Shown here in pieces: positions 6,478-24,043 of a stretch of DNA of 27,202 nucleotides. Source of the stretch: a virus. Positions within the stretch are counted from its first letter, which is position 1; each line of letters opens with the position of its first letter. The notes under the pieces are model-generated. The model had not been told where the DNA came from, did not search any database, and saw only the letters and a list, made by a program, of their open reading frames with translations. The DNA lies in IMG/VR virus record IMGVR_UViG_3300021364_002303, positions 1 through 27,202 of that record; one strand, given 5' to 3'. A program made the translations under genes and the position numbers.

Positions 6478-7422
6478 ATGGCAAATTATAATAGTTTTAA
6501 GAGAATAAATTCAGAAGCAATAATTGACGGCGAAATTGTAACATCAGAACTAGCAAATAATTCTGTAGGGCAAGATCAACTTGCTGATGGTGCTGTAACA
6601 GAAGATAAGATACTAGATGGTGCAGTCACTGATGGAAAATTAGCTAGCGATTTTGACATTTCCACCAAGACAGTTACCTACAGAACTATTGTAAATGGAG
6701 ATATTAATTCTAGTGCAGCTATTGCTGGAGGAAAATTTGCCAGTGGTGCTATAGAAGGAAATTTAGGTGGAGCACCTCTACCTACCTCCGGCGGCACAAT
6801 GACAGGACAACTCAAAACTACAACAGGTAGCGCAGGTGCTCCTGCTGTGTATAGAAGCGGTGATGGCGATACAGGTATAAGTTTTAGCGGAAATAGTACA
6901 ACAATTTCAGCAGGTGGTCAAACAGCCCTTGTTATGAACTCCAATGATAATCTTACAAAACCTAACAGCGTTGCATTTCACTCTCCAGGAACTAGTGGTT
7001 GGAGATATGCAAATAGCTATGGTGGCACAGGATGGAGAAGTTTGAACGGTAACTTTGGTTGGACTGGCCAACAACGTGGTGGAAGTAACTTTAATTACGG
7101 CAATGGAAGATTTACTGCTCCAGTATCAGGATTTTACCAATTCATGTTTGAAACATATGCACGTAATGATAGAAACAATAACCAAGGATACTATCACATG
7201 AGCTTTGGTGTTAACGGTGGAAATGCTATGGTAGGCGGACGCACACCACACGGTATATACGGTCATTCTAACGCACAAAGATATTATCCAAATGGCACAC
7301 ATGTGGATTTAGGAACTTATTTAAATGCTGGACAATACGTAGAAGTGCGTGTATTCTGGCACAACAATCAAACACGCTTTCATAGTGCTCACAGTGTGTT
7401 TAATGGTTACATGATTAGCTAA
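6478..7422 (+). CDS. Tail fibre protein with C1q-like C-terminal domain, copy 3 of 3
   Basis: This 314-residue paralog opens with MANYNSFKRIN, as copy 1 does. It has shaft repeats through about residue 70 (GAVTEDKILDGAVTDGKL) and a linker with GDGDTGISFSGNSTTIS. The C1q-like domain (about residues 165-314) contains NGRFTAPVSGFYQF, YLNAGQYVEV and a final VFNGYMIS. It is closer to copy 1 than to copy 2 in the NGRFTAPVSG strand. The aromatic and Asn/Gly-rich loops (YARNDRNNNQGYYH, HSNAQRYYPNG) are where the three copies differ and are the natural candidates for receptor contact. There is no strong ribosome site ahead of it (GGATAAGTT), so coupling to copy 2 is likely. Confidence 0.74.
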   Translation: MANYNSFKRINSEAIIDGEIVTSELANNSVGQDQLADGAVTEDKILDGAVTDGKLASDFDISTKTVTYRTIVNGDINSSAAIAGGKFASGAIEGNLGGAPLPTSGGTMTGQLKTTTGSAGAPAVYRSGDGDTGISFSGNSTTISAGGQTALVMNSNDNLTKPNSVAFHSPGTSGWRYANSYGGTGWRSLNGNFGWTGQQRGGSNFNYGNGRFTAPVSGFYQFMFETYARNDRNNNQGYYHMSFGVNGGNAMVGGRTPHGIYGHSNAQRYYPNGTHVDLGTYLNAGQYVEVRVFWHNNQTRFHSAHSVFNGYMIS

Positions 7423-7425
7423 ATA
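7419..7425 (+). promoter_or_regulatory. Possible late promoter-like motif
   Basis: CTAAATA overlaps the stop codon of the third fibre gene and lies 18 bases before the start at 7444. It is a weaker match to TATAAATA than the other sites in this window. Its position matches that of the other candidates, but the stop codon context could produce it by chance. Confidence 0.22.
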
Positions 7426-7443
7426 ACTATGAGGACAAACTAA

Positions 7444-7686
7444 ATGAGAAATATAGTATTTGAAATTACAGACAACGAACAAAAAGTTTTAGATAGATAT
7501 TGCATGGACCCACAAGAATGGATTGAAAATGCAGTAAATCATCTAGTTGAAGGTGCAAAAACACAAATTTATGATTCAGAAGTTGAAAGAATTCTAGCAG
7601 ATCCTGACGTTGCAACACTTGTAACTGATAGAAATGAGATAGTTAATATGTATAGTGGTCCTTTAAAGGGAAATCCAAACGGGTAA
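7444..7686 (+). CDS. Small protein of unknown function, paralog of the next gene
   Basis: This 80-residue acidic protein has no membrane segment. It opens with VFEITDNEQKVLDRYCMDPQEWIENAVNHLVEGAKTQIYDSEV, a predicted strand followed by two helices. That layout matches the next gene (VQISDADYKALCYVTENPNTYVDEHVTEYIRQMKEDLVKEIL). Small proteins with the DPQEWIEN pattern occur near structural genes of T4-like cyanophages, to my recollection without a known function. AGGA about nine bases before the ATG supports the start. It lies 21 bases after the third fibre gene, so a link to fibre production (assembly factor or chaperone) is possible but rests only on position. Confidence 0.6.
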   Translation: MRNIVFEITDNEQKVLDRYCMDPQEWIENAVNHLVEGAKTQIYDSEVERILADPDVATLVTDRNEIVNMYSGPLKGNPNG

Positions 7687-7698
7687 AGGAGATTTATT

Positions 7699-8028
7699 AT
7701 GACAGTACAATACACAGTTCAAATAAGTGATGCTGATTACAAAGCTCTATGTTATGTAACTGAGAATCCTAACACATACGTTGACGAACATGTAACCGAA
7801 TATATCCGTCAAATGAAGGAAGATTTAGTAAAAGAAATTCTTAAAAGCGAACTTGCTAAACCAGGAATGAGATCTATACCTGCTGACAAAGAAGAATTAA
7901 TTCGTACAGCAAACGTTAAAACACAAAAACAAATCGTCAGAGAGGACACACTGCGCATGGAAGCAATGGTTATAAGTCCAGATGCACATGATTCTGATAT
8001 TGGCGAAGCTGTTGAATTACCAGAATAA
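7699..8028 (+). CDS. Small protein of unknown function, paralog of the previous gene
   Basis: This 109-residue, highly charged protein has an N-terminal half (residues 1-50) that follows the same strand-helix-helix plan as the preceding 80-residue protein. Its C-terminal half is extra and helical or disordered (KTQKQIVREDTLRMEAMV), ending in an acidic tail. A strong ribosome site (AAAGGAG, seven bases upstream) sets the start. It is the last gene of the left plus-strand block and is followed by a clear terminator. No function can be assigned. A duplication of the neighbour is the simplest origin. Confidence 0.6.
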   Translation: MTVQYTVQISDADYKALCYVTENPNTYVDEHVTEYIRQMKEDLVKEILKSELAKPGMRSIPADKEELIRTANVKTQKQIVREDTLRMEAMVISPDAHDSDIGEAVELPE

Positions 8029-8048
8029 TAAAAGATTTTTATTGTATT

Positions 8049-8075
8049 AAAAAAGCCGCTATATGCGGCTTTTTT
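8049..8075. terminator. Bidirectional intrinsic terminator between convergent genes
   Basis: AAAAAAGCCGC, the loop TATAT, then GCGGCTTTTTT form a perfect eleven-pair stem with a five-base loop. A runs on one side and T runs on the other make it a Rho-independent terminator in both directions. It ends the plus-strand block finishing at 8028 and the minus-strand operon whose last stop codon (8074-8076) overlaps its edge. Confidence 0.9.
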
Positions 8076-8583
8076 ATTCTTCTATATTAGATATTTTTTT
8101 TAATTTAAACGCAACTGTTGTTCTTAGAATAGGACAATGTCTTGTAGGTTCATTCGCTACATGGGGTATGTTACTATCAAAAACTATTGCCGTGTTACTA
8201 CAAGGTAAAATACTTGCTACACGGTCTTTAGATTTAATTACAGTATGTCCACCCCATTCAGGATGCCATACATGATTTGCATAATATATTACAGTTAAAT
8301 CATTTTCACTATCTGAATCAATGTGCATGTAACCTGGAAGACCATGCGTTTGTCCGTTGGCATAGACCCTGACCAGTTCAACATCAATTTTGATCAAATC
8401 TTTTATTACATTAAAAAATTCTTCTGTATAGAATTTATTATTAGATAAATCATGAAACCAAAATTTTAATTGATCGTTTGCATTTGAAATACCTTGGAAT
8501 TTATAATCTGCATTTTGCAAGTATTCAGCTTGTTCGTGAAATTCTCTAGCTGATAATACATTATCAAACTGTAGTAAATTCAT
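8074..8583 (-). CDS. 2OG-Fe(II) oxygenase-like protein (HxD type)
   Basis: This 169-residue protein shows the double-stranded beta-helix pattern of 2-oxoglutarate/Fe(II) oxygenases. GYMHIDSD gives the metal motif H87-x-D89, IVFDSNIPHVANEP gives the distal H141, and R154 in LRTTVAFKL is a candidate for binding the 2-oxoglutarate carboxylate. The GGHTVI strand is typical of prolyl-hydroxylase-like members. In this family oxygen and 2-oxoglutarate drive hydroxylation of a protein or small molecule, and the substrate here is unknown. It is the last gene of the minus-strand operon. Its ATG follows the halogenase stop codon without a gap, and AGGAG within the halogenase end serves as ribosome site, so the two are translationally linked. 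Its stop codon overlaps the terminator. Confidence 0.8.
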   Translation of the reverse strand: MNLLQFDNVLSAREFHEQAEYLQNADYKFQGISNANDQLKFWFHDLSNNKFYTEEFFNVIKDLIKIDVELVRVYANGQTHGLPGYMHIDSDSENDLTVIYYANHVWHPEWGGHTVIKSKDRVASILPCSNTAIVFDSNIPHVANEPTRHCPILRTTVAFKLKKISNIEE

Positions 8584-10269
8584 TTACTCCTCTGTATTAG
8601 TTGAGTCTTCTATAGCATCTTCTTCTATAGCATCTTCTTCTACAACATCTTCTTTTTCATAAAAATTCTTTCTTAGATATTCATAGTGGCTATCTGCGTC
8701 ATTAGCTAGTGTTTGGATATAATCTTTCTTTTGATCCCAATAATCTTGCAACTGTTTAGTATATATTTCTGGTGTTTGTCCTTGTCTAGATACAATCAGA
8801 TCTTCTAAAACTTTTAATTGCGTAGGATTCGCAGGTATACAATTATTTCCTACAAAAATATCTGGAATACCACCCATTGACAAGTCTCCTTGCATGGAAT
8901 GAGACTGCAATAGTGCATTTGCCATCACAGCAGGTAAACTTTCTATACTATTATTAAATTTAGGATCATCTAGTCTAGGGTCCATTCTTATATACTCACC
9001 TGCTTGACGCCAGTATTCTGTATCTCTGCGTGAAGATAGAGTAAAGTGATATGCTACAAAGAATTTAAATCCTGTCATAATTTGTTTTACAACATAGTTA
9101 AAATGGTCTACATGTACTCGATTTACTTGTTCATAGTGCAGTGTCTCGCACAGTCTAAGTAATATTTCTTGTACACTTAATAGACCTGTAGATTCTAAAG
9201 GTTCAATAAAACCATAAGATAAGCCTACACCAACTACGTTCTGAACCCAACATCTATGCATTACTCCGTTACGTATATCAATATGATCAAATTTTTCAAT
9301 TTCTTCTGAACGATCAGGCTTGTGCAATTTCATTCTATCACTATTAAGATATTCTTTAAATTCTTCTTCAGCTTGTTCGCGTGTTAAGAATTTTGGATCG
9401 TATACATAACCTGCACCAATTCTATTGTATAATGGAATATTCCAAATCCAACCATTATTCCATGCAGTACAGTTAGTAACATTTTCCATTTCAAGTTCTT
9501 TATCTGTGTAAGGAACATGGCAAGTGACAGCACGTTTGTTAGGTAACCAATCTCCAAAATCTTCAAAGAAAGATTCCATTGTTTCTCCTAGCAATAAAGA
9601 TCTAAAACCCGTACAGTCAATGAATAGATCTGCTTCAAGTTGATCACCGTCGTCTAGTTGTATATAGGAAACATATCCTTCTATATCTTTTTCGATTTTT
9701 TTGATTTCTTTTTTCACATGCACTACGCCATTGGGTAATGCAACTTTATCACGTAATACGTGTCCAAATTGTATAGCATCAACATGATAGGCTACATCTG
9801 ATTTCCAACTAAAGTTAGGCAACTGGCCATCTTTGTTGTCATAGATCTTGTTATCATATATAAAAGGCATACAACTATAAAATGACTCATAAAAGTCGTT
9901 TTTAGGTGTTTCCGGATTTAATGCTTTTTTTACATACCAATCTGTTGCACCTGCTTGAGTGTTTTGCATATCTTTTACACCAAATGGATAGTAATATGCT
10001 TCACCTTTTTTATAGAAGTCGCTAAACTTAATACCTAACTTATAAGTTGCTTGACATTCGGGCATCCAGTCTTCATCTTTTAAACCTAGTAGGTCTAGAA
10101 AACTGTTTATAGTTCCTAAAGTTGATTCTCCTACACCTATCACAGGAATATTTGGAGATTCAACTAGTGCTATCTCTTTATCAGGAAATTGTTTTGATAG
10201 TACAGCGGCTGTCATCCATCCTGCTGAACCACCACCACAAATGATAATTTTGTTTATAGGTCCTCTCAT
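8584..10269 (-). CDS. Flavin-dependent halogenase, tryptophan halogenase family
   Basis: This 561-residue protein is close to the usual length of the family (roughly 500-550). The N-terminal GGGSAGW (residues 12-18) is the FAD-binding loop. W274-I-W-N-I-P279 is the WxWxIP signature of flavin-dependent halogenases. K77 in ATYKLGIKF matches the catalytic lysine position of PrnA (K79), and E359-S360 in PLESTG matches its E346-S347. The enzyme should use FADH2, oxygen and chloride or bromide to make HOX, which is guided to an aromatic substrate. The substrate is unknown, and no flavin reductase is visible nearby. A C-terminal acidic tail (about 541-561) is encoded by a 15-base tandem repeat. The ATG overlaps the previous stop (ATGA). 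Family members are known in cyanophage genomes. The gene lies among 2OG oxygenases, which suggests a shared target. Confidence 0.88.
   Translation of the reverse strand: MRGPINKIIICGGGSAGWMTAAVLSKQFPDKEIALVESPNIPVIGVGESTLGTINSFLDLLGLKDEDWMPECQATYKLGIKFSDFYKKGEAYYYPFGVKDMQNTQAGATDWYVKKALNPETPKNDFYESFYSCMPFIYDNKIYDNKDGQLPNFSWKSDVAYHVDAIQFGHVLRDKVALPNGVVHVKKEIKKIEKDIEGYVSYIQLDDGDQLEADLFIDCTGFRSLLLGETMESFFEDFGDWLPNKRAVTCHVPYTDKELEMENVTNCTAWNNGWIWNIPLYNRIGAGYVYDPKFLTREQAEEEFKEYLNSDRMKLHKPDRSEEIEKFDHIDIRNGVMHRCWVQNVVGVGLSYGFIEPLESTGLLSVQEILLRLCETLHYEQVNRVHVDHFNYVVKQIMTGFKFFVAYHFTLSSRRDTEYWRQAGEYIRMDPRLDDPKFNNSIESLPAVMANALLQSHSMQGDLSMGGIPDIFVGNNCIPANPTQLKVLEDLIVSRQGQTPEIYTKQLQDYWDQKKDYIQTLANDADSHYEYLRKNFYEKEDVVEEDAIEEDAIEDSTNTEE
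8606..8650. repeat. 15-base tandem repeat, three units, in the halogenase 3' end
   Basis: TCTTCTATAGCATCT occurs exactly twice (8606-8620, 8621-8635), and a third unit with two changed bases follows at 8636-8650. On the coding strand it encodes the repeated acidic segment EDAIE near the end of the halogenase. The copy number is a multiple of whole codons, so gain or loss of units keeps the frame. Confidence 0.85.
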
Positions 10270-10886
10270 TTTTGTATTATTCCTTCTTTCTTTTCGTTAA
10301 TTGTTAACCAGTTAAATGCGATAGTAATTCTATCGTCGTCTGTTGTATTTACTTGAACTCGGTGATCCAACCATCCAGGAAAGAGTATAATCATTCCTTC
10401 TTGGGGTGGATAGTAAATTTTTTCAAATGCTTTTTTACCTGCCGGAAATAGCCCTTTTTGCGTAAACTGAACGGGGTTACGTATCATTAGATCACCGTCT
10501 TTTGTGTTGGTTTTGTAATAATATACTCCGCTAATAAAACTATCTGTGTGTGAGTGCCATTCTTGGCTTTCTCCTCTAGAAGTAATATTAAACCAACTAT
10601 GACTCATAAAAATATCATTGTTTATAAAAGGTTTTAATTGGTCTACATATGCATATGTGTGCTTTTGGATATAGTTTTCTAGGTTTTTTAACCCATAATC
10701 GTTTATAGTATTCCATCTGTGTGAAATAGTAGTTTGTACAGGATCTTCCCATCCTTTGGGAGTTTCCCAAGAATCGTTTTCTTTAATCTCGGGCAATTTT
10801 TGTTTAATTTCATTCTGGATTAAAAAAGTCTCGTCAAAAGATCCTTTATGCACATATACAGGAGTAGGAAAAATCCATTCAATCAT
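10266..10886 (-). CDS. 2OG-Fe(II) oxygenase-like protein (PF13759-like, HxHxD)
   Basis: This 206-residue protein begins with WIFPTPVYVHKG, the N-terminal pattern of the 'putative 2OG-Fe(II) oxygenase' family (PF13759/TIGR02466 type). The core reads EWHSHTDSFISGVYYY, then GMIILFPGWLDHRVQVN and RITIAFNW. Candidate metal ligands are H111/H113, D115 and H175, and R186 is a candidate 2-oxoglutarate arginine. This is the only member of its subgroup here with an acid (D115) two residues after the second His, where the others have Gly. It lies directly before the halogenase, sharing four bases with it (ATGA), so the two are likely made together. The substrate is unknown. Confidence 0.78.
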   Translation of the reverse strand: MIEWIFPTPVYVHKGSFDETFLIQNEIKQKLPEIKENDSWETPKGWEDPVQTTISHRWNTINDYGLKNLENYIQKHTYAYVDQLKPFINNDIFMSHSWFNITSRGESQEWHSHTDSFISGVYYYKTNTKDGDLMIRNPVQFTQKGLFPAGKKAFEKIYYPPQEGMIILFPGWLDHRVQVNTTDDDRITIAFNWLTINEKKEGIIQK

Positions 10887-11575
10887 TTTTTATTCCGTTC
10901 CTTAAATTTTTTTGTTTTGTAATAATTGCTAGAAAAAGAAAAATGATATCCGTCTTTGCTAACAAACTCTTCTGCACTTACAACATGCATTTTTATTTTT
11001 ATATTTTTGTCAGATAATGGAATACACTGCACTAATGGATCGCCAGCATTTATCATAAAATTATTAGGATATATTTTTTTAGAAACTACCATGTTTACAT
11101 TTGTAGTAGATTGATGTTTGTACTCTACTATTCCGTTAGGCACAAAATAATTGCTTTGATGATGATTCCAAAATGAATTTGTAAATAAAAACTTAACACC
11201 TGTTTTTTCTTTAATCCTCCAAGGACTAACTAATTTTATATGTGCATACCCATCTAATCCTGTACCCCACTGAATAGGGTTATGTTGGTCTGCAGCATCA
11301 TCTGGATATGTTGAAGGAATACCGCTATTGATTTGTATTTGAAAATCTCTCCAAGCCTGTATAACAAATCCCGATTTGAAATAGTCCACAACACCCGGAC
11401 ATGTTTTCATTGTTCCTCGATTAACACCTTGAAATTCTACGGTGGTTTCTAATTTTTTCCACCAATTAGGAATCATATTTTTTGATTCAACTATAGGAAA
11501 CAACTCTGGTAAATCTGGTATAACTGTAAAACAATCTAATAATATCGTAGAAGGCTTGTTAAAAATACTAAACAT
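10883..11575 (-). CDS. Uncharacterised protein, diverged member of a three-gene paralog family
   Basis: This 230-residue protein shares a weak but ordered set of motifs with the two genes upstream of it: IPNWWKKLE (35-43), MKTCPGVVDYFKSGFVI (56-72), GIVEYKH (148-154), and INAGDPLVQCIPL (175-187). It lacks the TPPGYS motif of its paralogs, which is replaced by KTGVKFLFT. Motif order and predicted strands suggest a beta-rich domain. The family recalls DUF6065-type proteins, an uncertain match made from memory. There is no complete HxD-H-R set, so it cannot be called an oxygenase. It overlaps the next gene by four bases. A weak AGG lies eleven bases before the ATG. It shows no signal peptide or membrane segment. 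Confidence 0.6.
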   Translation of the reverse strand: MFSIFNKPSTILLDCFTVIPDLPELFPIVESKNMIPNWWKKLETTVEFQGVNRGTMKTCPGVVDYFKSGFVIQAWRDFQIQINSGIPSTYPDDAADQHNPIQWGTGLDGYAHIKLVSPWRIKEKTGVKFLFTNSFWNHHQSNYFVPNGIVEYKHQSTTNVNMVVSKKIYPNNFMINAGDPLVQCIPLSDKNIKIKMHVVSAEEFVSKDGYHFSFSSNYYKTKKFKERNKK

Positions 11576-11583
11576 GTGTATAC

Positions 11584-12285
11584 TTACCTGAATTTTTTTC
11601 TGCTATGAAACAACCTGGAATAGGTTCCGTGCCACAAGTTTTTTGTCCAATACCTAAACTTATTTGCGTTGGTATAATCATCAAAACTAACTTCCATCTT
11701 CCAATCATCTCTCTTAAATGGATATACTACCATGAGAGGTTCTCCTGGTTTTATAGTAAATTGTTTTTTAAGACCTACTCCTACAAAATTTACAGCATCA
11801 TCGTGCTTATCTGTATCTACTATAGCAGGAAGCATTTTATAATTTTTATTCAATGTGAAAAATGGTTGATAAAAATGACAACTATAACCTGGAGGAGTAA
11901 TAACCTTCCAAGAATTACTAAGTTTAAAGTAATGACTTTTAGCTTCGTCCATAACAACAGGAGCCTGTTGAAAAGGGTGTCCTGCCACATATTCTGAAGC
12001 TGGACAAACATTATGTGCGCGAAGTATACCGTCTCTATCTTCCTGGAATCGTATATCAGTATCATATGAATTTAATATCACATAACCGCTTGTTAAGTAA
12101 TCAAGTACAGGCACACATTTTTTCATTGTAGGAACATCTTTTTGCTGTACGTCTCCGTCATCGTGATCGAAACTTAACGGAATATCCTTATACCATTTTG
12201 GAATAATTTTAGAAACAGGCACTGGTGGATAATGTATCTCAGCTGATTTATCATAAGTTACAAATTTAATAAGTTTTTCTGACAT
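11584..12285 (-). CDS. Uncharacterised protein, three-gene paralog family (DUF6065-like?)
   Basis: This 233-residue protein is clearly paralogous to the 217-residue neighbour at 12285-12938. Both share an IPKW/LPKW segment near residue 30, a Cys-x-PV-x-D-(Y/W) segment followed by SGY(V/I)I, W/Y-K-V-(I/V)-TPPGYSC, QPF, a (V/I)DTDKHD segment (156-162 here), PGE-x-L, and PFKRD-x-W. Invariant TPPGYSC, DTDKHD and PFKRD suggest a conserved binding or catalytic site. The biochemical role is unknown to me. Similar wording (TPPGY, a VETD-like segment, a GEP strand) is what I recall of DUF6065, so that link is tentative. It joins its upstream neighbour through a TAATG overlap. The C-terminus is basic and aromatic (residues 206-233). 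Confidence 0.65.
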   Translation of the reverse strand: MSEKLIKFVTYDKSAEIHYPPVPVSKIIPKWYKDIPLSFDHDDGDVQQKDVPTMKKCVPVLDYLTSGYVILNSYDTDIRFQEDRDGILRAHNVCPASEYVAGHPFQQAPVVMDEAKSHYFKLSNSWKVITPPGYSCHFYQPFFTLNKNYKMLPAIVDTDKHDDAVNFVGVGLKKQFTIKPGEPLMVVYPFKRDDWKMEVSFDDYTNANKFRYWTKNLWHGTYSRLFHSRKKFR

Positions 12286-12938
12286 TACTTATATACCTTC
12301 TTTGTTCTAAATAATTTGGTGTATGCACCTCTTATGTAATGAAACAATTGACTATACATCCTTTCAGATTTAAGAGTCATTTCCCAATTATCTCTTTTGA
12401 ACGGTACTATTTGTACTAGTTTCTCACCTGGAAGTATTCTCAAATCTTTTTCTTTAGTATATGCCATTGTTGTAACAACCCAGTCATGCTTATCTGTATC
12501 AATAATACCAGGCATAATTGTAAATTTAGAATTAAAATCATAAAATGGTTGCATAATTAGACAACTGTAGCCAGGCGGTGTTACTACTTTATATTCTGTC
12601 TCTATTTTAAAGTAAGCATATGGACCACCGTCAATAGGCATACATTCCTTAGCGTATACACTAGGATTAATTTTTCTTAGATTTGGTCTTTTGTTTTGTG
12701 TAGTTAACTCTAAACCTTTTTTAAATTGCACAACTTTTTCTTTTACAAATGTTTCCCAAGGATTGTGAATAATATATCCACTATTCATCCAATCCATTAC
12801 AGGAGCACAATTAGTAACATTAAATTCGTTATTGTTATCTATACTATCTAACCACTTAGGAAGATCTTCCGATATGGGCATCGGCGGAAAATCTTTCATA
12901 ATCTGTGGATCGTCAGTGTAAAATTCTATTTTTTTCAT
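12285..12938 (-). CDS. Uncharacterised protein, three-gene paralog family (DUF6065-like?)
   Basis: This 217-residue protein is the closest paralog of the gene just downstream. Motifs in order are LPKWLDSI (26-33), CAPVMDWMNSGYIIHNPWE (44-62), YKVVTPPGYSC (116-126), QPF (130-132), GIIDTDKHD (144-152), LPGEKLVQIVPFKRDNWEM (169-187), and a basic C-terminal end. The even spacing of motifs over the whole length argues that these are full-length, working proteins. It is tied to both neighbours by TAATG overlaps. Neither the cofactor nor the substrate can be read from the sequence. Its place inside an oxygenase/halogenase operon suggests it belongs to the same modification process, as enzyme or substrate-binding partner. 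Confidence 0.65.
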   Translation of the reverse strand: MKKIEFYTDDPQIMKDFPPMPISEDLPKWLDSIDNNNEFNVTNCAPVMDWMNSGYIIHNPWETFVKEKVVQFKKGLELTTQNKRPNLRKINPSVYAKECMPIDGGPYAYFKIETEYKVVTPPGYSCLIMQPFYDFNSKFTIMPGIIDTDKHDWVVTTMAYTKEKDLRILPGEKLVQIVPFKRDNWEMTLKSERMYSQLFHYIRGAYTKLFRTKKVYK

Positions 12939-13603
12939 TATATTTTTGCCCTTACATTTCCAGAAACTGAAATCCTTGTATTATCATTATAAAAAGGATA
13001 TACCTGATGATGAAGTTGAGCAGGAAAAACGCAAATTTTGCCCTCCCAACTAGAATCGTCTGCCAATCTCGCTGTTTTTATTTGTCCTAGCATATCTGTG
13101 TAAACAAATTCAAATTGACCTTGATAACCTTTATTTAAACTAAAAGATTCATTGTAATTTGTGCTAATTATATCTGTAGCTTTGTAAGGTATTTGTACCC
13201 AAACAACAAAACTAAAAATTCCACTATGTCTATGCAAAGGAGTATATTCTCCAGGACGCTGATAATTTATCCAAAATCTTTCAACGACACAATCCCAATT
13301 TTCCGGTTCGTTTTCGTATTGATTAAGAGTGTACATATATTCGGGGTATGTTTCAACTAACATTCTGCAAATCGATAAGAGTTCTCTTTCTAAACCATCT
13401 TTACTTTTAGTAGGCTGTTGAAAAAATAAATCTTTTGATACATCTTGATGATACATTTCAAGTAAATCGCCCGACCTTTTACCCCAATCTTTTTCTAAAA
13501 TTTTTAATCCTTCTTGACAATCTTTTTTTAATTGTTGAAAAACAAAAGGATTTAGATCTCCAAGATATATACCCAAATTTGGTAAAACTTTCTCGGTTAT
13601 CAT
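12938..13603 (-). CDS. 2OG-Fe(II) oxygenase-like protein (HxH type)
   Basis: In this 221-residue protein the core reads FWINYQRPGEYTPLHRHSGIF, giving H124-x-H126, then a strand pair, and KICVFPAQLHHQVYPF with H198/H199, followed by R210 in TRISVSGNV. The fold pattern is that of the 2OG oxygenases, and the RPGEY-x-P-x-H-x-H lead-in is characteristic. The usual acid of the HxD motif is not evident, because the second position is His. AAGGAG eight bases before the ATG is one of the strongest ribosome sites of the operon and may boost the distal genes. It shares four bases with the upstream gene (ATGA) and one base with the downstream gene. The substrate is unknown. Confidence 0.74.
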   Translation of the reverse strand: MITEKVLPNLGIYLGDLNPFVFQQLKKDCQEGLKILEKDWGKRSGDLLEMYHQDVSKDLFFQQPTKSKDGLERELLSICRMLVETYPEYMYTLNQYENEPENWDCVVERFWINYQRPGEYTPLHRHSGIFSFVVWVQIPYKATDIISTNYNESFSLNKGYQGQFEFVYTDMLGQIKTARLADDSSWEGKICVFPAQLHHQVYPFYNDNTRISVSGNVRAKI

Positions 13604-14310
13604 TTTATATCTCCTTGAAGTTCCATCATTTCAGTAGCACTTCTCACAATACTTGCCTGTGTAATTCTCCAATTATCGTAGTATGTATCGTTATTTTCAA
13701 TGTATGCACCATGTAACTGGTTACCGCTGAATATAACACAGCGGTTTGGTTTTGCTGGAATTATTTCTTTGATTTTGTATTTAGACACATCTACTATTAG
13801 GTTAGCACCTTCTCTATTTTCAATTTCTTCATTTTCGTACAGTGCTGTTCCACCATCTGCCACAGCATCTATGTAAATTAATATGTTAACCATATTTCTA
13901 TCATAATGTGGATGATGTTGCATAGTGTTAGGTAATTTCTGTTTTTTATGCTTAAAAACGTTGAACGCAAGACTTTTTTCCATAGCAACATCGTCCCAGC
14001 CTACTAGTCTTCCAACAAGCCTGTTGAGAGGCTCTAACCGGGCATCTATCATTTCTTTAGAAGGTTCCCAATTAGCAAAAGCAGGCCTACAATCATAGTA
14101 ATCTTTAAAATTTCTACTCCATTTACTCATTTTCCAAGACTCAACAGGCATATTTTCAAATAACGATTGTATCTGGTCTATGTTTGTATAAAAATCATCT
14201 ATACATACCCAGTCTTCGTAGTAGGATATTTTACTATTAGGATTAAGTGAAAATAATTCTTCAACAACAATAGGAATAGGCATCTTTTTTTCTCTTTCTT
14301 TAAAATCCAT
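13600..14310 (-). CDS. 2OG-Fe(II) oxygenase-like protein (HxD type)
   Basis: This 236-residue protein has all expected motifs. QHHPHYDRN gives H135-x-D137, GGTALYEN is the strand that follows in hydroxylases, RCVIFSGNQLHGAYI gives H200, and R215 in WRITQASIV is the candidate 2-oxoglutarate ligand. The N-terminal half (YEDWVCIDDFYTNIDQIQSL) matches the region before the core in DUF6445-like and related oxygenases, to my recollection. The chosen ATG overlaps the previous gene by eleven bases. A second ATG nine codons later (14283) is equally possible, and neither has a strong ribosome site. It is a soluble protein without a signal peptide. The substrate is unknown. Confidence 0.78.
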   Translation of the reverse strand: MDFKEREKKMPIPIVVEELFSLNPNSKISYYEDWVCIDDFYTNIDQIQSLFENMPVESWKMSKWSRNFKDYYDCRPAFANWEPSKEMIDARLEPLNRLVGRLVGWDDVAMEKSLAFNVFKHKKQKLPNTMQHHPHYDRNMVNILIYIDAVADGGTALYENEEIENREGANLIVDVSKYKIKEIIPAKPNRCVIFSGNQLHGAYIENNDTYYDNWRITQASIVRSATEMMELQGDIK

Positions 14311-14938
14311 CTTCGTCTTGATTTGTCAATTTCATCATAATGTTTACAGCATTGACAATTCTAAGTTTGTTTGATGTGTGTTTAGGTGCAGTATGGTCTA
14401 ACCAACTTGGAAACAATACTATATCACCTTCTTCTGCTTGTACTTGATATCTATCATTAAACATGCTATCAGGCAAGTAATTAATATTTTTTGTAGGCAT
14501 AGAAGCACGTATCATTTTGTAATTAGGATTAAAGAAAATAGTTCCATCATCTTTGTCTTCTATATGAACAAAATGGGTGAACGCATAGTTAATATTTGTT
14601 GACCCGCCCATATGATCATGCATCCATTCTTCTTCATTATTAGTAGTAAAATTGTACCAACCTTTTAATTTTATATCCCACGGTTGTTTCATATCGAAAC
14701 CTATTTCTGACAGCATAGATTTTACATCATCAGTATATCTGTCATATATGTACGGCCAATGTATCATTGCACCAGTACCTGGTAAGTAATCTGTATAAAT
14801 CTGTTGTAGTCCACCGTTTGGTCCAAGTTCTTGAAATTTAGGATACACATGCTTCATTAGATAATCTTTTATCTCATCATGCTTAGTAGCCTTCATTTTA
14901 TAAATGTAAAACGGAAAAGGATTAATTTTTTCTATCAT
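14300..14938 (-). CDS. 2OG-Fe(II) oxygenase-like protein (HDHMGG subgroup, copy 2)
   Basis: This 212-residue protein opens with INPFPFYIYKMKA, as family members do (a hydrophobic 'FP-x-P-(I/V)-Y' start). The core is WYNFTTNNEEEWMHDHMGG with H107-D-H109, a strand with FVHIEDKDDGTIFFNP, then EGDIVLFPSWLDHTAPKH with H182, and R193 in LRIVNAVNI. The next gene upstream has the same HDHMGG, EGDI-x-FFPS/LFPS-x-L and spacing, so the two arose by tandem duplication. The second metal ligand would be His or missing, not Asp in the standard place. The ATG overlaps the upstream stop (ATGA). The reaction and substrate are unknown. Assignment to the PF13759-like group is by pattern. Confidence 0.77.
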   Translation of the reverse strand: MIEKINPFPFYIYKMKATKHDEIKDYLMKHVYPKFQELGPNGGLQQIYTDYLPGTGAMIHWPYIYDRYTDDVKSMLSEIGFDMKQPWDIKLKGWYNFTTNNEEEWMHDHMGGSTNINYAFTHFVHIEDKDDGTIFFNPNYKMIRASMPTKNINYLPDSMFNDRYQVQAEEGDIVLFPSWLDHTAPKHTSNKLRIVNAVNIMMKLTNQDEDGF

Positions 14939-15585
14939 GATGTTACAACATTCTTAAATAAAAATTCATTTGGATTTCCTATAGTAAGATTCATAGCTAT
15001 TGTTGCTCTAACGGTTTTGCTACGTTGGTATTCTACACTATGTCTTAAATATGACGGGAAAAATATTATATCTCCTTCAGCAACAGTGGGAGAATAATAA
15101 CCTTTTTGCCAATCTGTTGGCATATCCTCTCCATTGCAAGGATGCATATTTCTCAAATAAGTATGATGAATAGGATTGTAGAAAATAGTAGGCTTGTGTT
15201 CAGCAGGATCATAAATTAAATAATGTATAGCACTGTAAACAACTCCAGGAAATCCTCCCATGTGGTCGTGTTCTTCTTGGCTACTTCCTTCTATACCTAC
15301 ATTGTACCATAAATCAACATCAGTTACCCATTTTTTATTCTGATTAAAGCCAGCTTTTTTTTGGAAATTTACAATGGTACTATTATAGTATTCTATCCAT
15401 TCTGGACCTAATTTTTCTAAACCTCCAAAATAATCACTATATAGATTTAGTCCTACATTGTTAGGCCCCGGCAAGGCTTCTAATTTAGGCATCACATCTT
15501 TTAAAAATTTTTCTTTTACTTCTTTGTGATTAGGCAAAGTTGTTTTGTAAATAGGAATTTCAAATGCGCTAGATTTTATTATCAT
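14935..15585 (-). CDS. 2OG-Fe(II) oxygenase-like protein (HDHMGG subgroup, copy 1)
   Basis: This is a protein of 216 residues from the ATG at 15585. A TTG four codons earlier is also in frame, but the ATG overlaps the upstream stop as TAATG and has GGAG six bases ahead, which decides the start. FEIPIYKTTLP at the N-terminus fits the family. The core is LWYNVGIEGSSQEEHDHMGG with H106-D-H108, NPIHHTYLRNM, EGDIIFFPSYLRHSVEY with H182, and R193 in VRATIAMNL. The distal His and Arg stand at the same positions as in the neighbour, its tandem duplicate. The HPCNGEDMP insertion is its own. A 2OG-dependent hydroxylase of unknown target is the best call. Confidence 0.78.
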   Translation of the reverse strand: MIIKSSAFEIPIYKTTLPNHKEVKEKFLKDVMPKLEALPGPNNVGLNLYSDYFGGLEKLGPEWIEYYNSTIVNFQKKAGFNQNKKWVTDVDLWYNVGIEGSSQEEHDHMGGFPGVVYSAIHYLIYDPAEHKPTIFYNPIHHTYLRNMHPCNGEDMPTDWQKGYYSPTVAEGDIIFFPSYLRHSVEYQRSKTVRATIAMNLTIGNPNEFLFKNVVTS

Positions 15586-16259
15586 TAGTTGCTCCAACTA
15601 GATTTTACTGACAAAATAGATGACAATTCTTGGAATTGTGCATTATTAATAAAAAAAAGTAACGAGTATCTAGGTAATGTTTTTACCTTGTAACTGTTAG
15701 GTCTATGCCATTGTGTTGCATCGTATGCTACTAGCCTGTTGAACTTGTTTCCAACATTTATAGTTTCAGAAAATTGCGATCTGTTATTTTTTAAATCTTT
15801 TAAGTATTGATCAGTAACATTTTTTTTAAGATTTAATTCTTTGCGGGATTTGTAATCCTCTGCTTCAAAGTCTTTAGATAATGTTTTATCAAAAATACTT
15901 GTACCTGTGCTCATGTTAGGTTCTTCATCATTAAGATATACTAATCCTGCAAAATCAATATCGTCATTATGAATCCAACCGCAGTTGGCTTCGTCTACAT
16001 TATAAAGATCGTTTTTATGAAATCTAACATCTATCTCAAATTTACTTAAACCATAAAACACTTTGTCGGCTATATTCTTTGCAAAAAACTTCGCAAATTC
16101 AACAGCTAATGTATTGTTAATTTGTAATAAATTATCAGTTCTCAACCCAGGCCATGCCTCGTTATTATGGTATTCTAACGAGTTTCCTAGATCAATTATA
16201 GGCTGTATATCATTGAAAAAATCATCAATAACGTGTGTAGAATTTCTGTATATATCCAT
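15585..16259 (-). CDS. 2OG-Fe(II) oxygenase-like protein (HxD type, DUF6445-like)
   Basis: This 224-residue protein is the first gene of the minus-strand operon. CGWIHNDDIDFAGLVYLND holds H97-x-D99 and the strand that follows. After a lysine-rich insertion (about 125-165) come NKFNRLVAYDATQWHRPNSY with H185 and R197 in PRYSLLFFI. The W-(I/V)-H-x-D, A-x-(L/V)-x-YLN and late N-(R)-L-V-x-Y-D-x-x-x-WH order recalls the DUF6445 group of 2OG-like proteins, which in some bacteria occur next to tryptophan halogenases. That parallel is from memory. The ribosome site is weak (GGAAAA, far upstream). The stop overlaps the next start as TAATG. Confidence 0.78.
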   Translation of the reverse strand: MDIYRNSTHVIDDFFNDIQPIIDLGNSLEYHNNEAWPGLRTDNLLQINNTLAVEFAKFFAKNIADKVFYGLSKFEIDVRFHKNDLYNVDEANCGWIHNDDIDFAGLVYLNDEEPNMSTGTSIFDKTLSKDFEAEDYKSRKELNLKKNVTDQYLKDLKNNRSQFSETINVGNKFNRLVAYDATQWHRPNSYKVKTLPRYSLLFFINNAQFQELSSILSVKSSWSN

Positions 16260-16317
16260 ACTATTACTTATTTTCCAAAGTTAAGTGATACAATGATAAT
16301 GACTGTATAAGTACAGT
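16260..16317. promoter_or_regulatory. Divergent intergenic region, likely promoters for the two halves of the oxygenase island
   Basis: These 58 bases separate the minus-strand operon (start 16259) from the plus-strand genes (start 16318), so promoters for both directions should lie here unless read-through covers them. On the plus strand TTTCCA (16272-16277), seventeen bases and GATAAT (16295-16300) form a fair sigma-70-like site that would start transcription near 16307. No T4-late-type motif is seen in either direction. The promoter call is weak. Confidence 0.3.
16302..16317. promoter_or_regulatory. Perfect inverted repeat abutting the start codon at 16318
   Basis: ACTGTA, TAAG, TACAGT form a perfect six-base inverted repeat with a four-base centre, ending directly at the ATG. 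As DNA it could be a small operator. As RNA it could be a short hairpin over the translation start, which has no ribosome site. Its function is unproven. Confidence 0.4.
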
Positions 16318-17025
16318 ATGAAACATGAACTAGCTCATCCAATGGAACGAATATCTTTATGGCCAACTTATATGTTTAGGTATAGGTATAGAGATTGGCC
16401 TTATGATAAGAAAAAATTAGTAGACTGTATAAGAGAAGAAGAAAAAAAGCAAGAAAAAGACATTGATAGTGATGTTGCTCTAGGAGTCAAAACAGCTGGA
16501 TTAAAAGAAAGCAAATTTGATTTCCTAAAAAAAGAAAACGAATATCCTATTTTAAAAAAATATAATGAATTCTTTAGTGAGGCTTTAGCAAACGTTGTTT
16601 TACATGCGTTACCTAGTGCAGACCAAAGATTAGCATTACCTCCTCATATAAAAGTAGTCAATCCTATAATATTTGAATCATGGTATCATGTTACTAATTC
16701 AAGTGGAGCGCATGGTGTCCATTGTCATCCAGGATCTAGTTGGGCAGGAATTTTTTATGTTCAGACATCAGAATGCAAAAAACTTAACGGAGTAAATCGT
16801 TGGTTTAATATAGATTCTAATCGCGGACCGGGAGACTTAGGAAGCTATTGGTGGAACACTGATAGCGTATATGGGTTTGAACCCGAAGAAGGAACACTAA
16901 TACTTTTTCCTTCTTGGCTTTGGCACGAAGCTACGTCATACATAGGTAAAGAAGATAGAATATGTATAGCTTTTAATAGTGTAATTACTGACCCTAGCGA
17001 TACCGTCCTAGTTGGAGACGCTTAG
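16318..17025 (+). CDS. 2OG-Fe(II) oxygenase-like protein (PF13759-like, HxHPG)
   Basis: This is a protein of 235 residues from the first ATG. The family N-terminus (ISLWPTYMFRYR, like WIFPTPVYVHK elsewhere) makes the ATG at 16342 (227 residues) also plausible, and neither start has a ribosome site. A charged segment (about 38-75) is followed by the core: SWYHVTNSSGAHGVHCHPGSSWAGIFYV with H135-x-H137, GTLILFPSWLWHEATSY with H203, and R214 in DRICIAFNS. The HPGS-x-x-(S/A)G-(V/I)-(Y/F)Y order is the hallmark of the PF13759-like group. Gly stands where the acid ligand would be. It opens the plus-strand half of the island, and the next gene starts inside its stop codon (TAGTG). Confidence 0.77.
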   Translation: MKHELAHPMERISLWPTYMFRYRYRDWPYDKKKLVDCIREEEKKQEKDIDSDVALGVKTAGLKESKFDFLKKENEYPILKKYNEFFSEALANVVLHALPSADQRLALPPHIKVVNPIIFESWYHVTNSSGAHGVHCHPGSSWAGIFYVQTSECKKLNGVNRWFNIDSNRGPGDLGSYWWNTDSVYGFEPEEGTLILFPSWLWHEATSYIGKEDRICIAFNSVITDPSDTVLVGDA

Positions 17026-17501
17026 TGATTAACGTGTATGATGAATTTTTAGGTGTCTCAGTAAGACAGGCTATATTTAAACAATGTCACAAATTATACT
17101 ATATGATGGGCGAGTTAGATCGAGAAGATTGTCCACCGACAGGAATGATAAGCGAATTGAAATCTGACGATATGGTTTTACCAGAAATTATATCTGAAAA
17201 ATTAAATCGTCCTGTTTCGTCTTTAATACGATTTTATGTAAATTATTATGCACCTGGAGAAACTCCCTATTTTCATGATGATGGTGATTGTATTACTTGT
17301 TTGTACTACCCTAATGTTATAGATGATATCGATCAAGGTGGAGAAACTCAATTTTTGTTAGATAATAAGATCTCAGCTGTGCCACATGTACCAGATAGAC
17401 TGATAGAATTTGATGGAAAAATACCTCACAAAGCAACTAGTTTTAGAGATACTTATAGATTTACAATAGCAGCAAAATACACAAGAAAGTTTGGTGAATA
17501 A
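17025..17501 (+). CDS. 2OG-Fe(II) oxygenase, prolyl-4-hydroxylase-like (HxD type)
   Basis: This 158-residue protein is the cleanest 2OG oxygenase of the window. NYYAPGETPYFHDDGDCITCLYYPN gives H84-x-D86. GGETQFLLD is the strand typical of prolyl-4-hydroxylase-like proteins. VPDRLIEFDGKIPHKATSF gives H135, and R145 lies ten residues later, the usual distance for the 2-oxoglutarate arginine. The protein is short and lacks any extra domain. The start is GTG, sharing a base with the previous stop (TAGTG), so translation is coupled. Prolyl, lysyl or other side-chain hydroxylation of a protein is a reasonable guess from the subfamily, with the target unknown. Confidence 0.85.
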   Translation: MINVYDEFLGVSVRQAIFKQCHKLYYMMGELDREDCPPTGMISELKSDDMVLPEIISEKLNRPVSSLIRFYVNYYAPGETPYFHDDGDCITCLYYPNVIDDIDQGGETQFLLDNKISAVPHVPDRLIEFDGKIPHKATSFRDTYRFTIAAKYTRKFGE

Positions 17502-17502
17502 T

Positions 17503-18210
17503 ATGAATAAGTTCCTTTGGAAAATTACTGATACGTGTATAGATTATACTCCAGTTACAATTATAAAAAATGCTATTACTAAAAAACAGGCAAACGAAAT
17601 TGCAGAACAGGTAATAGAATACAGTAAAACAGATCACAGCAAACAATTCCAAGAATTTAATCAAGACAACAATCCTGGCACTTGGAGGGGGTTTCCACTA
17701 GTAGCCCCAGACGATGTACCAGGATTAACAAGAGAAAACAAAGAACTTATTCAATCAACAATAATGGAAGCTGGTAGGCATTACCAAGCAAGCTGGCCAG
17801 CAGCGCCTGAAATAAAAGTAACAACTTGGCAACGTAGTATTTTTAATGAAAATGATGTAGATGTAAGTGTATGGTTTAATATAAACCAAAAAGGTTCTGC
17901 AAATATGATACATGCACACCACGGAGCATATTATAGCGGCGTGTTTTATTTCCAAGCAGAAGGTACAGGAAATATTAGATTATATCCTGATAATTTTTTG
18001 ACTGGAAATACACATCCTATGTGGCCGTACAAAGGAACAATGACACATGAACCAGAAGATGGCGATTTATTATTATTTCCTGGCCATCTACAACACGATG
18101 TAGAAGCAAATCCAAACGAAATACCTAGAGTCAACTGTGCTTTTAATGTAGGACTAGTACCTAGAAACGATATAGTCATGGAAAGAAAAGCGGCATCTGT
18201 TCCTAATTGA
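17503..18210 (+). CDS. 2OG-Fe(II) oxygenase-like protein (PF13759-like, HxH)
   Basis: This protein has 235 residues from the ATG at 17503, one base after the previous stop. An in-frame TTG at 17491 inside the previous gene is less likely. Core motifs are WFNINQKGSANMIHAHHGAYYSGVFYF with H137-x-H139, GDLLLFPGHLQHDVEANP with H198, and R209 in PRVNCAFNV. NIRLYPDNF between them is a variable strand. It matches the genes at 10266 and 16318 in the SGV-(Y/F)-Y strand and the DG(D/M)-x-(L/I)-LFPG-x-L-x-H strand, placing all three in one subgroup. It is the last gene of the plus-strand half of the island. The candidate late promoter of the next block begins three bases after its stop. Confidence 0.78.
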   Translation: MNKFLWKITDTCIDYTPVTIIKNAITKKQANEIAEQVIEYSKTDHSKQFQEFNQDNNPGTWRGFPLVAPDDVPGLTRENKELIQSTIMEAGRHYQASWPAAPEIKVTTWQRSIFNENDVDVSVWFNINQKGSANMIHAHHGAYYSGVFYFQAEGTGNIRLYPDNFLTGNTHPMWPYKGTMTHEPEDGDLLLFPGHLQHDVEANPNEIPRVNCAFNVGLVPRNDIVMERKAASVPN

Positions 18211-18247: not shown

Positions 18248-19753
18248 ATGGCAGATCAAGCACCAGTTGTAGGTAGAATACGGATAATACCAAGACCTAG
18301 CGATTTTCTAGATCGTCAAGTAGGAAATAGTGGTGAAGTATTCTTTGACAAACAATCAAAAAGTTTAAGAGTCTACAGCGGTGATGACCAAGGTGGATTC
18401 AAGCTTCTTACACCCGACAATGTAACAAACGAATTATATCAATCTGGAATTTCTACTGTAACTTATAATATTACTGTAGGCACAGATCCTGACGGTATAG
18501 AATCAGGAAACAAATACTTTATAGATAATGTTTACAAACCGGAACTAAATTTGGTTGTAGGATACACTTATGTATTTGTTCAAGATGATCAAACTAACGA
18601 ATATTTTCCTAATCCCGACGGCGGAACTAATAATCAACATCCCTTAAATTTTAGTTCAGATAATTTAAATGGTTCTTTAGGTGGAGGAACTAGTTACACA
18701 GATAATATAATTTATAGACTGGATGGTAAGGAAGTAACCCAAGCAAAATATTGGGAAAATTTTGCAACAAGCACAAATAGAAGTGTACAGATAACAATTA
18801 CCAGTTCAACACCTAAAACATTATATTATTGGTGTCAACAACACCTTAACATGGGAAATACTATAAACATTGCGAATCCGGGTACAGGTGCTGGAGGAGG
18901 AACAACTGTTGATGTTAGTGAAACAGCACCAGATTCTCCAACAGCTGGAAACATTTGGTTTAATTCTACAAATGGTAAAATATATGTCTATGTTGATGAC
19001 GGTGATAGTCAGCAATGGGTACAACCAGTTATACCAGGAGTAGGTCAAGCTGGCGAACAAGGCATAATTAATGCATTTTCATCAATAAAACTATCTGACA
19101 GTTCTCAAATGGATGCAGTTGGACAAGATACAATTACATTTGTAGACGGTCCTGGTATTGAAATTACCAATGACAGTACAAACAATACTATAATAATTAG
19201 TGCAACCGGCGGTGGCGGTGGCGCAGGAGGTGTAGATCTTACAGCATTTAGTGTTGGAGCAGAAGGTGCAGCTTCAGGAGATGGCGGTATTGCATATGAT
19301 AATTTGACAGGAGTGTTTACTTATACTCCACCGGATTTAAGTTCTTATCTGACTAGTATATCAGGATTAAACATAAGTTCACTTAACAATGACAGTGGAT
19401 TTATAACTAGTGCAAACCAAACTTTAGATGATGTAACCACAGCCGGCGCAACAACTACAAATAACATTTCAGTAGGCAGTGTTACTGCAACCTCTTTTAG
19501 TACAACAGGAAATTTAACTCTAGGAGGTGACATTGTTACAACAGGGTCTGGCACTCCTGAAATAACATCAGACAATGAAATATTATTAACAGCATCTACA
19601 AGAACAGTAATCCAAAATACACCATTCAAAGTAGCAGAATTTCTTACACTTGCTAGAGATGGATTAATTGCACAAAATGGCGATATAATTTATAACGGAG
19701 ATACAAATACATTTCAAGGATATGCAAATGGTGTTTGGGTTGACTTAAACTAG
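18248..19753 (+). CDS. Fibre-like virion protein with a plastocyanin-like domain
   Basis: This 501-residue protein begins with GRIRIIPRPSDFLDRQVGNSGEVFFD, a small module common at the start of marine phage fibre-like proteins. Residues about 72-210 look like a cupredoxin: YNITV, PELNLVVGYTYVF, H131 in QHPLNFS, GGTSYTD, and YYWCQQHLNMGN with C196, H199 and M202, the Cys-x2-His-x2-Met end of a type 1 copper site. The rest is Gly/Ser/Thr-rich with short fibre repeats (SVTATSFSTTGNLTLGGDI) and ends in YNGDTNTFQGYANGVWVDLN, a frequent fibre terminus. AAGGA ten bases before the ATG serves the start. Location on the virion surface is inferred. Whether copper is bound is not known. Confidence 0.75.
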   Translation: MADQAPVVGRIRIIPRPSDFLDRQVGNSGEVFFDKQSKSLRVYSGDDQGGFKLLTPDNVTNELYQSGISTVTYNITVGTDPDGIESGNKYFIDNVYKPELNLVVGYTYVFVQDDQTNEYFPNPDGGTNNQHPLNFSSDNLNGSLGGGTSYTDNIIYRLDGKEVTQAKYWENFATSTNRSVQITITSSTPKTLYYWCQQHLNMGNTINIANPGTGAGGGTTVDVSETAPDSPTAGNIWFNSTNGKIYVYVDDGDSQQWVQPVIPGVGQAGEQGIINAFSSIKLSDSSQMDAVGQDTITFVDGPGIEITNDSTNNTIIISATGGGGGAGGVDLTAFSVGAEGAASGDGGIAYDNLTGVFTYTPPDLSSYLTSISGLNISSLNNDSGFITSANQTLDDVTTAGATTTNNISVGSVTATSFSTTGNLTLGGDIVTTGSGTPEITSDNEILLTASTRTVIQNTPFKVAEFLTLARDGLIAQNGDIIYNGDTNTFQGYANGVWVDLN

Positions 19754-23428: not shown

Positions 23429-23676
23429 AATAAGGTTTCTAATTTAGTTCTCAATTCAACTAAACGTTCTACATTATCTCTATTTCTTTTAGGATCAATA
23501 TATCCATTATTATATGAACTATGACCTTCATCTATAAGATTTATCTGTTGTTGGAAATCTTTTAAATATATTTCAAATTGTTTTTTTACATTTTGATTTT
23601 GCATTTTTTCTATTGCAATTTTATATCTTTCAAAATCTTGTTTTATTTTACTTTGTTGAGACAATTTTTTAATCAT
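23425..23676 (-). CDS. Small coiled-coil protein, unknown role
   Basis: This 83-residue protein is rich in Lys, Gln and Glu. The first 50 residues (KIKQDFERYKIAIEKMQNQNVKKQFEIYLKDFQ) and the last 15 read as amphipathic helices, broken by a central GHSSYNNGYIDPKRN turn. It has no membrane segment. It is the last gene of the minus-strand neck operon, sharing a base with the previous stop (TAATG), and converges on the fibre gene to its left with a four-base overlap. I recognise no family. A small helical assembly factor is conceivable, from position only. Confidence 0.55.
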   Translation of the reverse strand: MIKKLSQQSKIKQDFERYKIAIEKMQNQNVKKQFEIYLKDFQQQINLIDEGHSSYNNGYIDPKRNRDNVERLVELRTKLETLF

Positions 23677-24041: not shown

Positions 24042-24043
24042 AA

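Follow-up and report, generated by a model that had tools for sequence, protein, structure and literature searches.

Gene content and layout of the island

The stretch analysed here, which we call the window, is the 27,202-base IMG/VR virus record IMGVR_UViG_3300021364_002303, in which genes were called as open reading frames (ORFs) and assigned to families by Pfam and PHROG matches. Between positions 8074 and 18210 it carries an island of 14 genes, lettered A to N (Table 1): ten oxygenases of the double-stranded β-helix (DSBH)/2-oxoglutarate (2OG) type, one flavin halogenase and three paralogues of the family phrog_7084. Eleven of these (A–K, 8074–16259) form a minus-strand run and three (L–N, 16318–18210) a plus-strand run, with neighbouring genes overlapping by 1–13 bp or separated by gaps of at most 9 bp, and with a divergent gap of 58 bp between K and L. 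An initial annotation, made from the sequence alone, had counted ten oxygenases, one halogenase and three paralogous unknowns, a count that the Pfam and PHROG matches reproduce exactly; its description of an overlap-coupled island in two divergent runs, with fibre genes on both sides, is likewise borne out by the ORFs and family matches.

Table 1. Features of the island, followed by those of its flanks (positions in the window)
Feature	Position	Strand	Evidence
A, PF13640-type 2OG oxygenase (HID...H...R)	8074..8583	-	PF13640 1.8e-8
B, VirX1-like flavin-dependent halogenase (predicted)	8584..10269	-	Trp_halogenase PF04820 2.4e-107
C, PF13759 oxygenase (HSH...H...R)	10266..10886	-	Pfam, structure model
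D, phrog_7084 paralogue	10883..11575	-	PHROG 1.8e-23
E, phrog_7084 paralogue	11584..12285	-	PHROG 2.2e-37, structure model
F, phrog_7084 paralogue	12285..12938	-	PHROG 4.2e-31
G, PF13759 oxygenase (HRH...H...R)	12938..13603	-	Pfam
H, DUF6445 oxygenase (HYD...H...R)	13600..14310	-	DUF6445 1.2e-9
I, PF13759 oxygenase (HDH...H...R)	14300..14938	-	Pfam
J, PF13759 oxygenase (HDH...H...R)	14935..15597	-	Pfam
K, DUF6445 oxygenase (HND...H...R)	15585..16259	-	DUF6445 1.5e-10
L, PF13759 oxygenase (HCH...H...R)	16318..17025	+	Pfam/PHROG
M, PF13640-like oxygenase (HDD...H...R)	17025..17501	+	phrog_274 4.8e-21; PF13640 weak (0.1)
N, PF13759 oxygenase (HAH...H...R)	17491..18210	+	Pfam/PHROG
Divergent control gap with inverted ATAAGTA pair	16260..16317	.	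sequence
g0, long fibre protein, open at window edge	2..3871	+	ORF; syntenic in related loci
g3, C1q/TNF-like fibre-tip paralogue	4594..5544	+	alignment A1; co-occurrence test
g4, fibre-tip paralogue	5548..6474	+	weak PF00229 TNF and tail-fibre PHROG matches; alignment A1
g5, fibre-tip paralogue	6478..7422	+	alignment A1
g6, small protein between tips and island	7444..7686	+	synteny
g7, small protein, same slot as small protein of cyanophage modules	7699..8028	+	synteny
GC-rich hairpin with runs of T and A, where fibre and island transcripts converge	8035..8076	.	by eye
O, fibre/baseplate-wedge-like protein	18248..19753	+	PHROG
P, subtilase-family protein within right fibre module	19762..21798	+	PF00082 2.1e-15
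Q, baseplate-wedge tail-fibre connector	21818..23428	+	phrog_677 5.7e-75

The GC content of the island (window 8001–18000) is 32–34%, against 37–41% in the left fibre genes. The labels attached to some of the PHROG families differ from what we find here: phrog_274 is named 'DNA endonuclease V' and phrog_1644 'minor coat protein', and their members in the window (A, M, H and K) are oxygenases by motif and Pfam. GenBank annotation of such oxygenase genes repeats both labels.

The island is conserved and lies 3' of fibre-tip genes

A first set of 27 IMG/VR loci was retrieved by means of the halogenase. Within the reach of each contig, the gene order K-(J)-I-(H)-G-F-E-D-C-B, followed by the convergent genes g7...g0, is found in nearly all of them and persists down to 30–50% identity; L025 and L027 are arranged differently. 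Comparison of the island genes of the window with those of the relative L001 gives a nonsynonymous divergence (dN) of 0.14–0.27 against a synonymous divergence (dS) that, where computable, is saturated at ~1.7–2.2, from which it follows that these genes encode maintained proteins under purifying selection. Since the order recurs in related loci and the genes are under such selection, the island is not a chance assembly. In the 135 kb relatives, all matches to PF13759 fall inside the island.

To avoid circularity, the second retrieval of loci used the fibre tip alone. A profile of the C1q-like tip (A1) returned 41 IMG/VR loci, and a profile of a glycine-rich tip (A2), built from cyanophages, returned 80; a locus counted as testable where it extended 4 kb or more 3' of the tip. 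Both a halogenase and an oxygenase lie on the 3' side in all 27 testable C1q-tip loci, while the glycine-rich-tip loci have a 3' halogenase in 61 cases out of 61 and a 3' oxygenase in 58. On the 5' side of the tips no halogenase was found (0/34 C1q loci and 0/61 glycine-rich loci, 0/95 together). Clustering of the halogenases by 4-mers divides them into ~14 distinct lineages for the C1q type and ~36 for the glycine-rich type. Among the GenBank phages (INPHARED), all 20 records with a glycine-rich tip are halogenase records. A more distant glycine-rich tip, that of Sf-CH11, returned 14 loci, with an oxygenase 3' in every one and a halogenase in 12, the other two ending first; their order, within contig reach, is tip, oxygenase, oxygenase, halogenase, oxygenase. 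We considered this tip as a third fold and rejected the idea, given that it too matches Gly_rich_2.

In the glycine-rich type, a single small gene stands between the last tip and the halogenase in 81 of 85 cases, always on the same strand, so that tips, small gene and halogenase are consistent with co-transcription. The island of the C1q type is convergent to its tips, and the linkage is therefore kept in two arrangements. The initial annotation had proposed looking for conserved co-occurrence with fibre genes in related phages; this is strongly present, all 88 testable tip-retrieved loci having a 3' halogenase. It had also held that homologues scattered at random positions would speak against a single system. 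No such scatter is seen for this halogenase clade, although more distantly related halogenases and some JmjC enzymes are found at other places. We conclude from these results that the island is a conserved module, specific to fibre tips.

In a tree of the halogenases, the main enzymes of the two tip types form sister clades, and extra halogenases from other clades have joined the modules. This pattern points to one old cassette in which the tip fold was exchanged and to which enzymes were later added. Some loci hold two to four halogenases; on a 198 kb virus contig, L027 carries four in tandem (7010–13019) beside ~10 oxygenases.

Gene B is a predicted VirX1-like halogenase

The motifs of B are intact (GGGSAG at 12, the YKLG Lys at 76–79 aligned with the Lys region of VirX1, WIWNIP at 274 and ESTG at 359), by which we predict that it is a VirX1-like flavin-dependent halogenase. 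VirX1 (PDB 6qgm) is the best solved relative over the full length (E 4.5e-117, ~40% identical). Alignments of B with tryptophan (Trp) halogenases stop at residue ~423–431, whereas that with VirX1 reaches 538, and thus the C-terminal part of Trp halogenases, in which these enzymes bind Trp, appears not to be shared with B. VirX1 is itself identical to Syn10 CPUG_00131, a protein located inside a module of tips, halogenase and 2OG oxygenases. It has been described as the first characterised viral halogenase; according to a review, its active site is large and accessible, and it accepts broad and bulky substrates and prefers iodide (PMC8407142). The open-licence literature that we searched reports no native substrate for VirX1 or B.

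Shortened halogenases of ~403–406 residues, without WxWxIP, occur in L005 (12146–13357), L015 (12176–13387) and L019 (12188–13396), and such forms are retained in several lineages alongside full-length ones; they are perhaps regulatory or decayed.

Two kinds of predicted iron site among the oxygenases

As judged by sequence, A, H, K and M carry the classical HxD...H...R pattern, and the families O3, O3d and D6445 keep HxD in 93–100% of members. The remaining six oxygenases (C, G, I, J, L and N, with PF13759 E-values from 2.5e-22 to 3.1e-10) lack the classical HxD/E. Among 203 dereplicated PF13759 homologues, H-x-H, the distal His and the Arg are invariant, and in a profile alignment the second His of HxH falls on the Asp of HxD; for these reasons we predict that PF13759 enzymes have three-His iron sites. 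The 2OG core patterns that the initial annotation saw in ten genes thus hold in that all ten are DSBH oxygenases, and not in that six of them have H-x-H...H...R in place of the classical motif. We also considered whether G, I, J, L and N might be HxG 2OG radical halogenases of the SyrB2/WelO5/BesD kind. This was rejected, since PF13759 uses HxH...H; the apparent HxG is a register slip, at a position that varies (N, G, D, K) among the 203 homologues.

The structure model of C (predicted local distance difference test score, pLDDT, 91.3) has a DSBH of prolyl-hydroxylase-like fold. Its nearest folds are 2rg4 and 3bvc (Z ~19.5), followed mostly by protein prolyl hydroxylases and the PBCV-1 viral collagen hydroxylase (15–16), with AlkB at 15. 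For the JmjC_2 proteins found in cyanophage modules, the best solved relatives are the histidyl hydroxylases NO66 and MINA and the L16 arginine hydroxylase. NO66, MINA, YcfD, PBCV-1 vCPH and PHD2 are the nearest characterised relatives, by sequence (JmjC_2) or by fold (PF13759), though remote ones, and the known protein hydroxylases have HxD...H where PF13759 enzymes have HxH...H.

The phrog_7084 paralogues

In 31 of the 40 complete glycine-rich modules, a single phrog_7084 gene lies downstream of the halogenase, whose C1q modules hold three to four copies. The AlphaFold model of E (pLDDT 91.5) shows a dUTPase-like fold with an insertion; against 2y8c it scores Z 12.8 with a root-mean-square deviation of 2.4 over 120 aligned residues, and the best Foldseek match has E 1.6e-3 at probability 1.0. 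Of the dUTPase motifs, just GIVDTD resembles motif III by eye, and the five-motif set looks incomplete. A halovirus member of the family (L032, 9905–10777) lies near a thymidylate synthase, which suggests that the family may descend from a nucleotide enzyme.

Cellular phrog_7084 genes were seen as single genes among ordinary genes in Caulobacteraceae (L166, and L169 at 7875–8585), one of them near a TonB-dependent receptor. The link to bacterial receptor loci that the initial annotation had named found no support, cellular members standing mostly alone. Nor do we take the family to be the SapC of such loci, given the dUTPase-like model of E and the solitary cellular homologues, SapC itself not having been searched.

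Conserved residues of the fibre tips

In tips of both folds, 46–49% of His residues fall in columns at least 85% conserved, which is near the figure for Gly and above that of every other residue type; Lys and Cys occur rarely, and in no case at conserved positions. The conservation of tip His fits its being a target of modification, and would fit metal binding equally. In T4 gp37, conserved His binds metal. A search for solved homologues of the C1q-type tip gave no significant match. One P-TIM40 tip (L039, 7673–9262; 529 residues) appears by eye to carry a fibrinogen-like second C-terminal domain behind the glycine-rich tip.

Flanking genes and regulatory elements

Pfam and PHROG searches gave no convincing family match for g6 or g7. 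The hairpin between the convergent fibre and island genes is likely to be a bidirectional terminator. In the right module, the subtilase P lies between two fibre genes and may process the fibre or be displayed on it. Further on, window 23425–24475 holds R, S and T, of which S resembles by eye a small cupin of the mannose-6-phosphate-isomerase kind and T a Nudix protein; homologues of the sheath/structural gene U in PA5oct-group phages likewise overlap a MutT/NUDIX annotation.

The motif ATAAATA occurs five times in the window against 16 expected, on the plus strand only and mostly shortly 5' of fibre genes. It is likely a late-promoter element that is avoided elsewhere. The ATAAGTA pair in the K/L gap could be a variant of it, the resemblance being suggestive only. 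As late promoters for the island, TATAAATA were rejected, with no match in the window against five expected. In the relative L001, the divergent K/L gap (~50–190) contains a long inverted repeat that is almost perfect, and in it promoter-like elements point in both directions.

Discussion

In the window, halogenase and oxygenases lie immediately 3' of the paralogous fibre tips, and the closest known counterparts of its island are those of T4-like cyanophages (Syn9, Syn10, S-CREM1, S-RIM44, S-WAM1, P-RSM6, P-TIM40 and Sf-FP1), in which halogenase and 2OG genes likewise adjoin a long fibre. Both have tips, a small protein, a VirX1-like halogenase, several PF13759/PF13640 oxygenases and, in most cases, phrog_7084. 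The cyanophage modules differ in having glycine-rich tips, a co-directional layout, usually JmjC_2 and at most one phrog_7084, whereas the window has C1q-like tips, a convergent layout, three phrog_7084 and no JmjC. The nearest relatives of the sheath/structural genes U and V are those of jumbo phages (Phosso, the PA5oct group and Atu_ph07, 32–41%), and no psbA is present in 13 related virus records, which are fragments, nor was any photosynthesis gene seen in the window lineage. The window phage is thus probably not an ordinary cyanophage, and the module is therefore shared by two or more phage lineages and combined with two tip folds. We found no near-identical isolate among GenBank records.

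Given that relatives of the halogenase follow tip genes in 88 of 88 testable sequences, these phages probably modify their own fibre tips. The island would be the local form of a widespread module that travels with tip genes and chemically finishes the tips. After translation, several Fe(II) oxygenases would hydroxylate exposed side chains of the tip; His is our best guess for the target, because the JmjC members resemble histidyl hydroxylases and because, along with Gly, it is the residue most often conserved; Asn, Arg and Pro are also possible. The VirX1-like halogenase would halogenate aromatic residues (Trp, Tyr, His) using reduced flavin supplied by the host. Both dUTPases and fibre tips are trimers, and on that ground we speculate that D, E and F, with a dUTPase-like fold that would form trimers, could serve as a binding or scaffold component for the trimeric tip or for the enzymes. 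As an effect, the receptor-binding surface could gain a new contact chemistry, or the tip could become more stable or bind metal. That the module hydroxylates and halogenates side chains of the fibre tip we judge slightly better than an even bet (a probability of about 0.5), the chemistry being what the enzymes lead us to infer, and we rank it above any other single explanation, including a metabolite or sugar pathway and action on the host surface. The one process, for example on fibre tips, that the initial annotation suggested is in this respect well supported as an inference by the co-occurrence with tips, its substrate and chemistry being putative.

A number of observations weigh against tip modification. 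The 88 loci are far from independent, since the main halogenases form sister clades, and a common hot spot or a single inherited cassette may account for the linkage. S-B64 has a VirX1-like halogenase without tips, between recombination and peptidase genes, the more remote halogenases of S-PM2, S-MbCM6 and HTVC008M lie away from tip modules, and in Syn30 and S-H38 JmjC genes occur by themselves. The enzymes of the C1q type are encoded on the strand opposite to the tips and lack the ATAAATA that precedes fibre genes. A Pfam scan found no JmjC in the window, no flavin reductase gene was seen, and the conserved tip His may only bind metal.

It is important to weigh these points against what other readings would explain. 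The island might make a small halogenated and hydroxylated metabolite, or decorate a sugar or capsule, in which case the fibre linkage would simply follow from where the island lies. A pathway would have use for many different oxygenases, Trp halogenases are well known from natural-product synthesis, and a related halogenase/2OG/cupin cluster in the jumbo cyanophage S-SSM6a has been described as a secondary-metabolite or capsule system (Iyer et al. 2021, PMC7824862). That cluster, which we liken to the island by its published description, has carbamoyltransferases, a HemK-like methylase and phosphatases (PMC7824862), whereas Pfam and PHROG matches to carbamoyltransferase or HemK methylase are absent among A–N; scaffold and carrier are likewise absent from the island, and none of the four was seen in the modules inspected. 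A pathway also leaves unexplained both the 88/88 tip linkage and the complete lack of upstream halogenases, and B appears not to share the C-terminal part of Trp halogenases, so that we consider this reading unlikely. So, too, is action of the enzymes on the host surface or receptor during infection, for superinfection exclusion or easier release. Position in a host-recognition module would be equally expected, and a 2014 survey of marine phage islands by Mizuno et al. places Fe(II) oxygenases under 'host recognition' and gives no mechanism for them (PMC3909814). However, we noticed no signal for secretion or membrane insertion in the enzymes, although no formal test was made, and their need for cytoplasmic FADH2 and 2OG would make newly made phage proteins the easier target.

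Cyanophage literature usually treats such genes as auxiliary metabolic genes (PMC2984593, PMC3037559, PMC9964418, PMC9602691, PMC9146016, PMC10452541), which here would mean DNA repair, control of 2OG/nitrogen, or protection of the host from antibiotics. Yet the genes cluster by tips and not by repair genes, no photosynthesis gene turned up in the window lineage, and consumption of 2OG needs no six to ten divergent paralogues; we regard this as very unlikely. We give as little credence to an inherited cassette or hot spot without a common substrate, where insertions are simply tolerated. The sister halogenase clades across two tip types and the GC content of the island, below that of its flanks, would suit such a history, but it sits poorly with an order kept at 30–50% identity, with strong purifying selection, and with the repeated addition of halogenases from other clades to the same slot.

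Our search of the open-licence literature found no proposal that these genes modify fibre tips: they appear there as auxiliary metabolic genes, as a secondary-metabolite cluster or, without mechanism, under 'host recognition', in keeping with the view of the initial annotation that such a system had not been described as such. Since at least 2010, cyanophage halogenases and the many 2OG oxygenases of these phages have been counted among auxiliary metabolic genes without a named substrate. The strict linkage to tips opens the way to a specific and inexpensive test in phages that can be grown in culture, and it offers a native role for VirX1. We propose only tentatively, at somewhat less than even odds, that phages of at least two lineages have a dedicated multi-enzyme system for hydroxylation and halogenation (perhaps bromination or iodination) of their own tips, and that this is the native role of VirX1. 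If true, this would be a rare instance of enzymatic protein halogenation and a viral protein-halogenation system, and side-chain chemistry would stand beside sequence change as a way for phages to diversify receptor binding.

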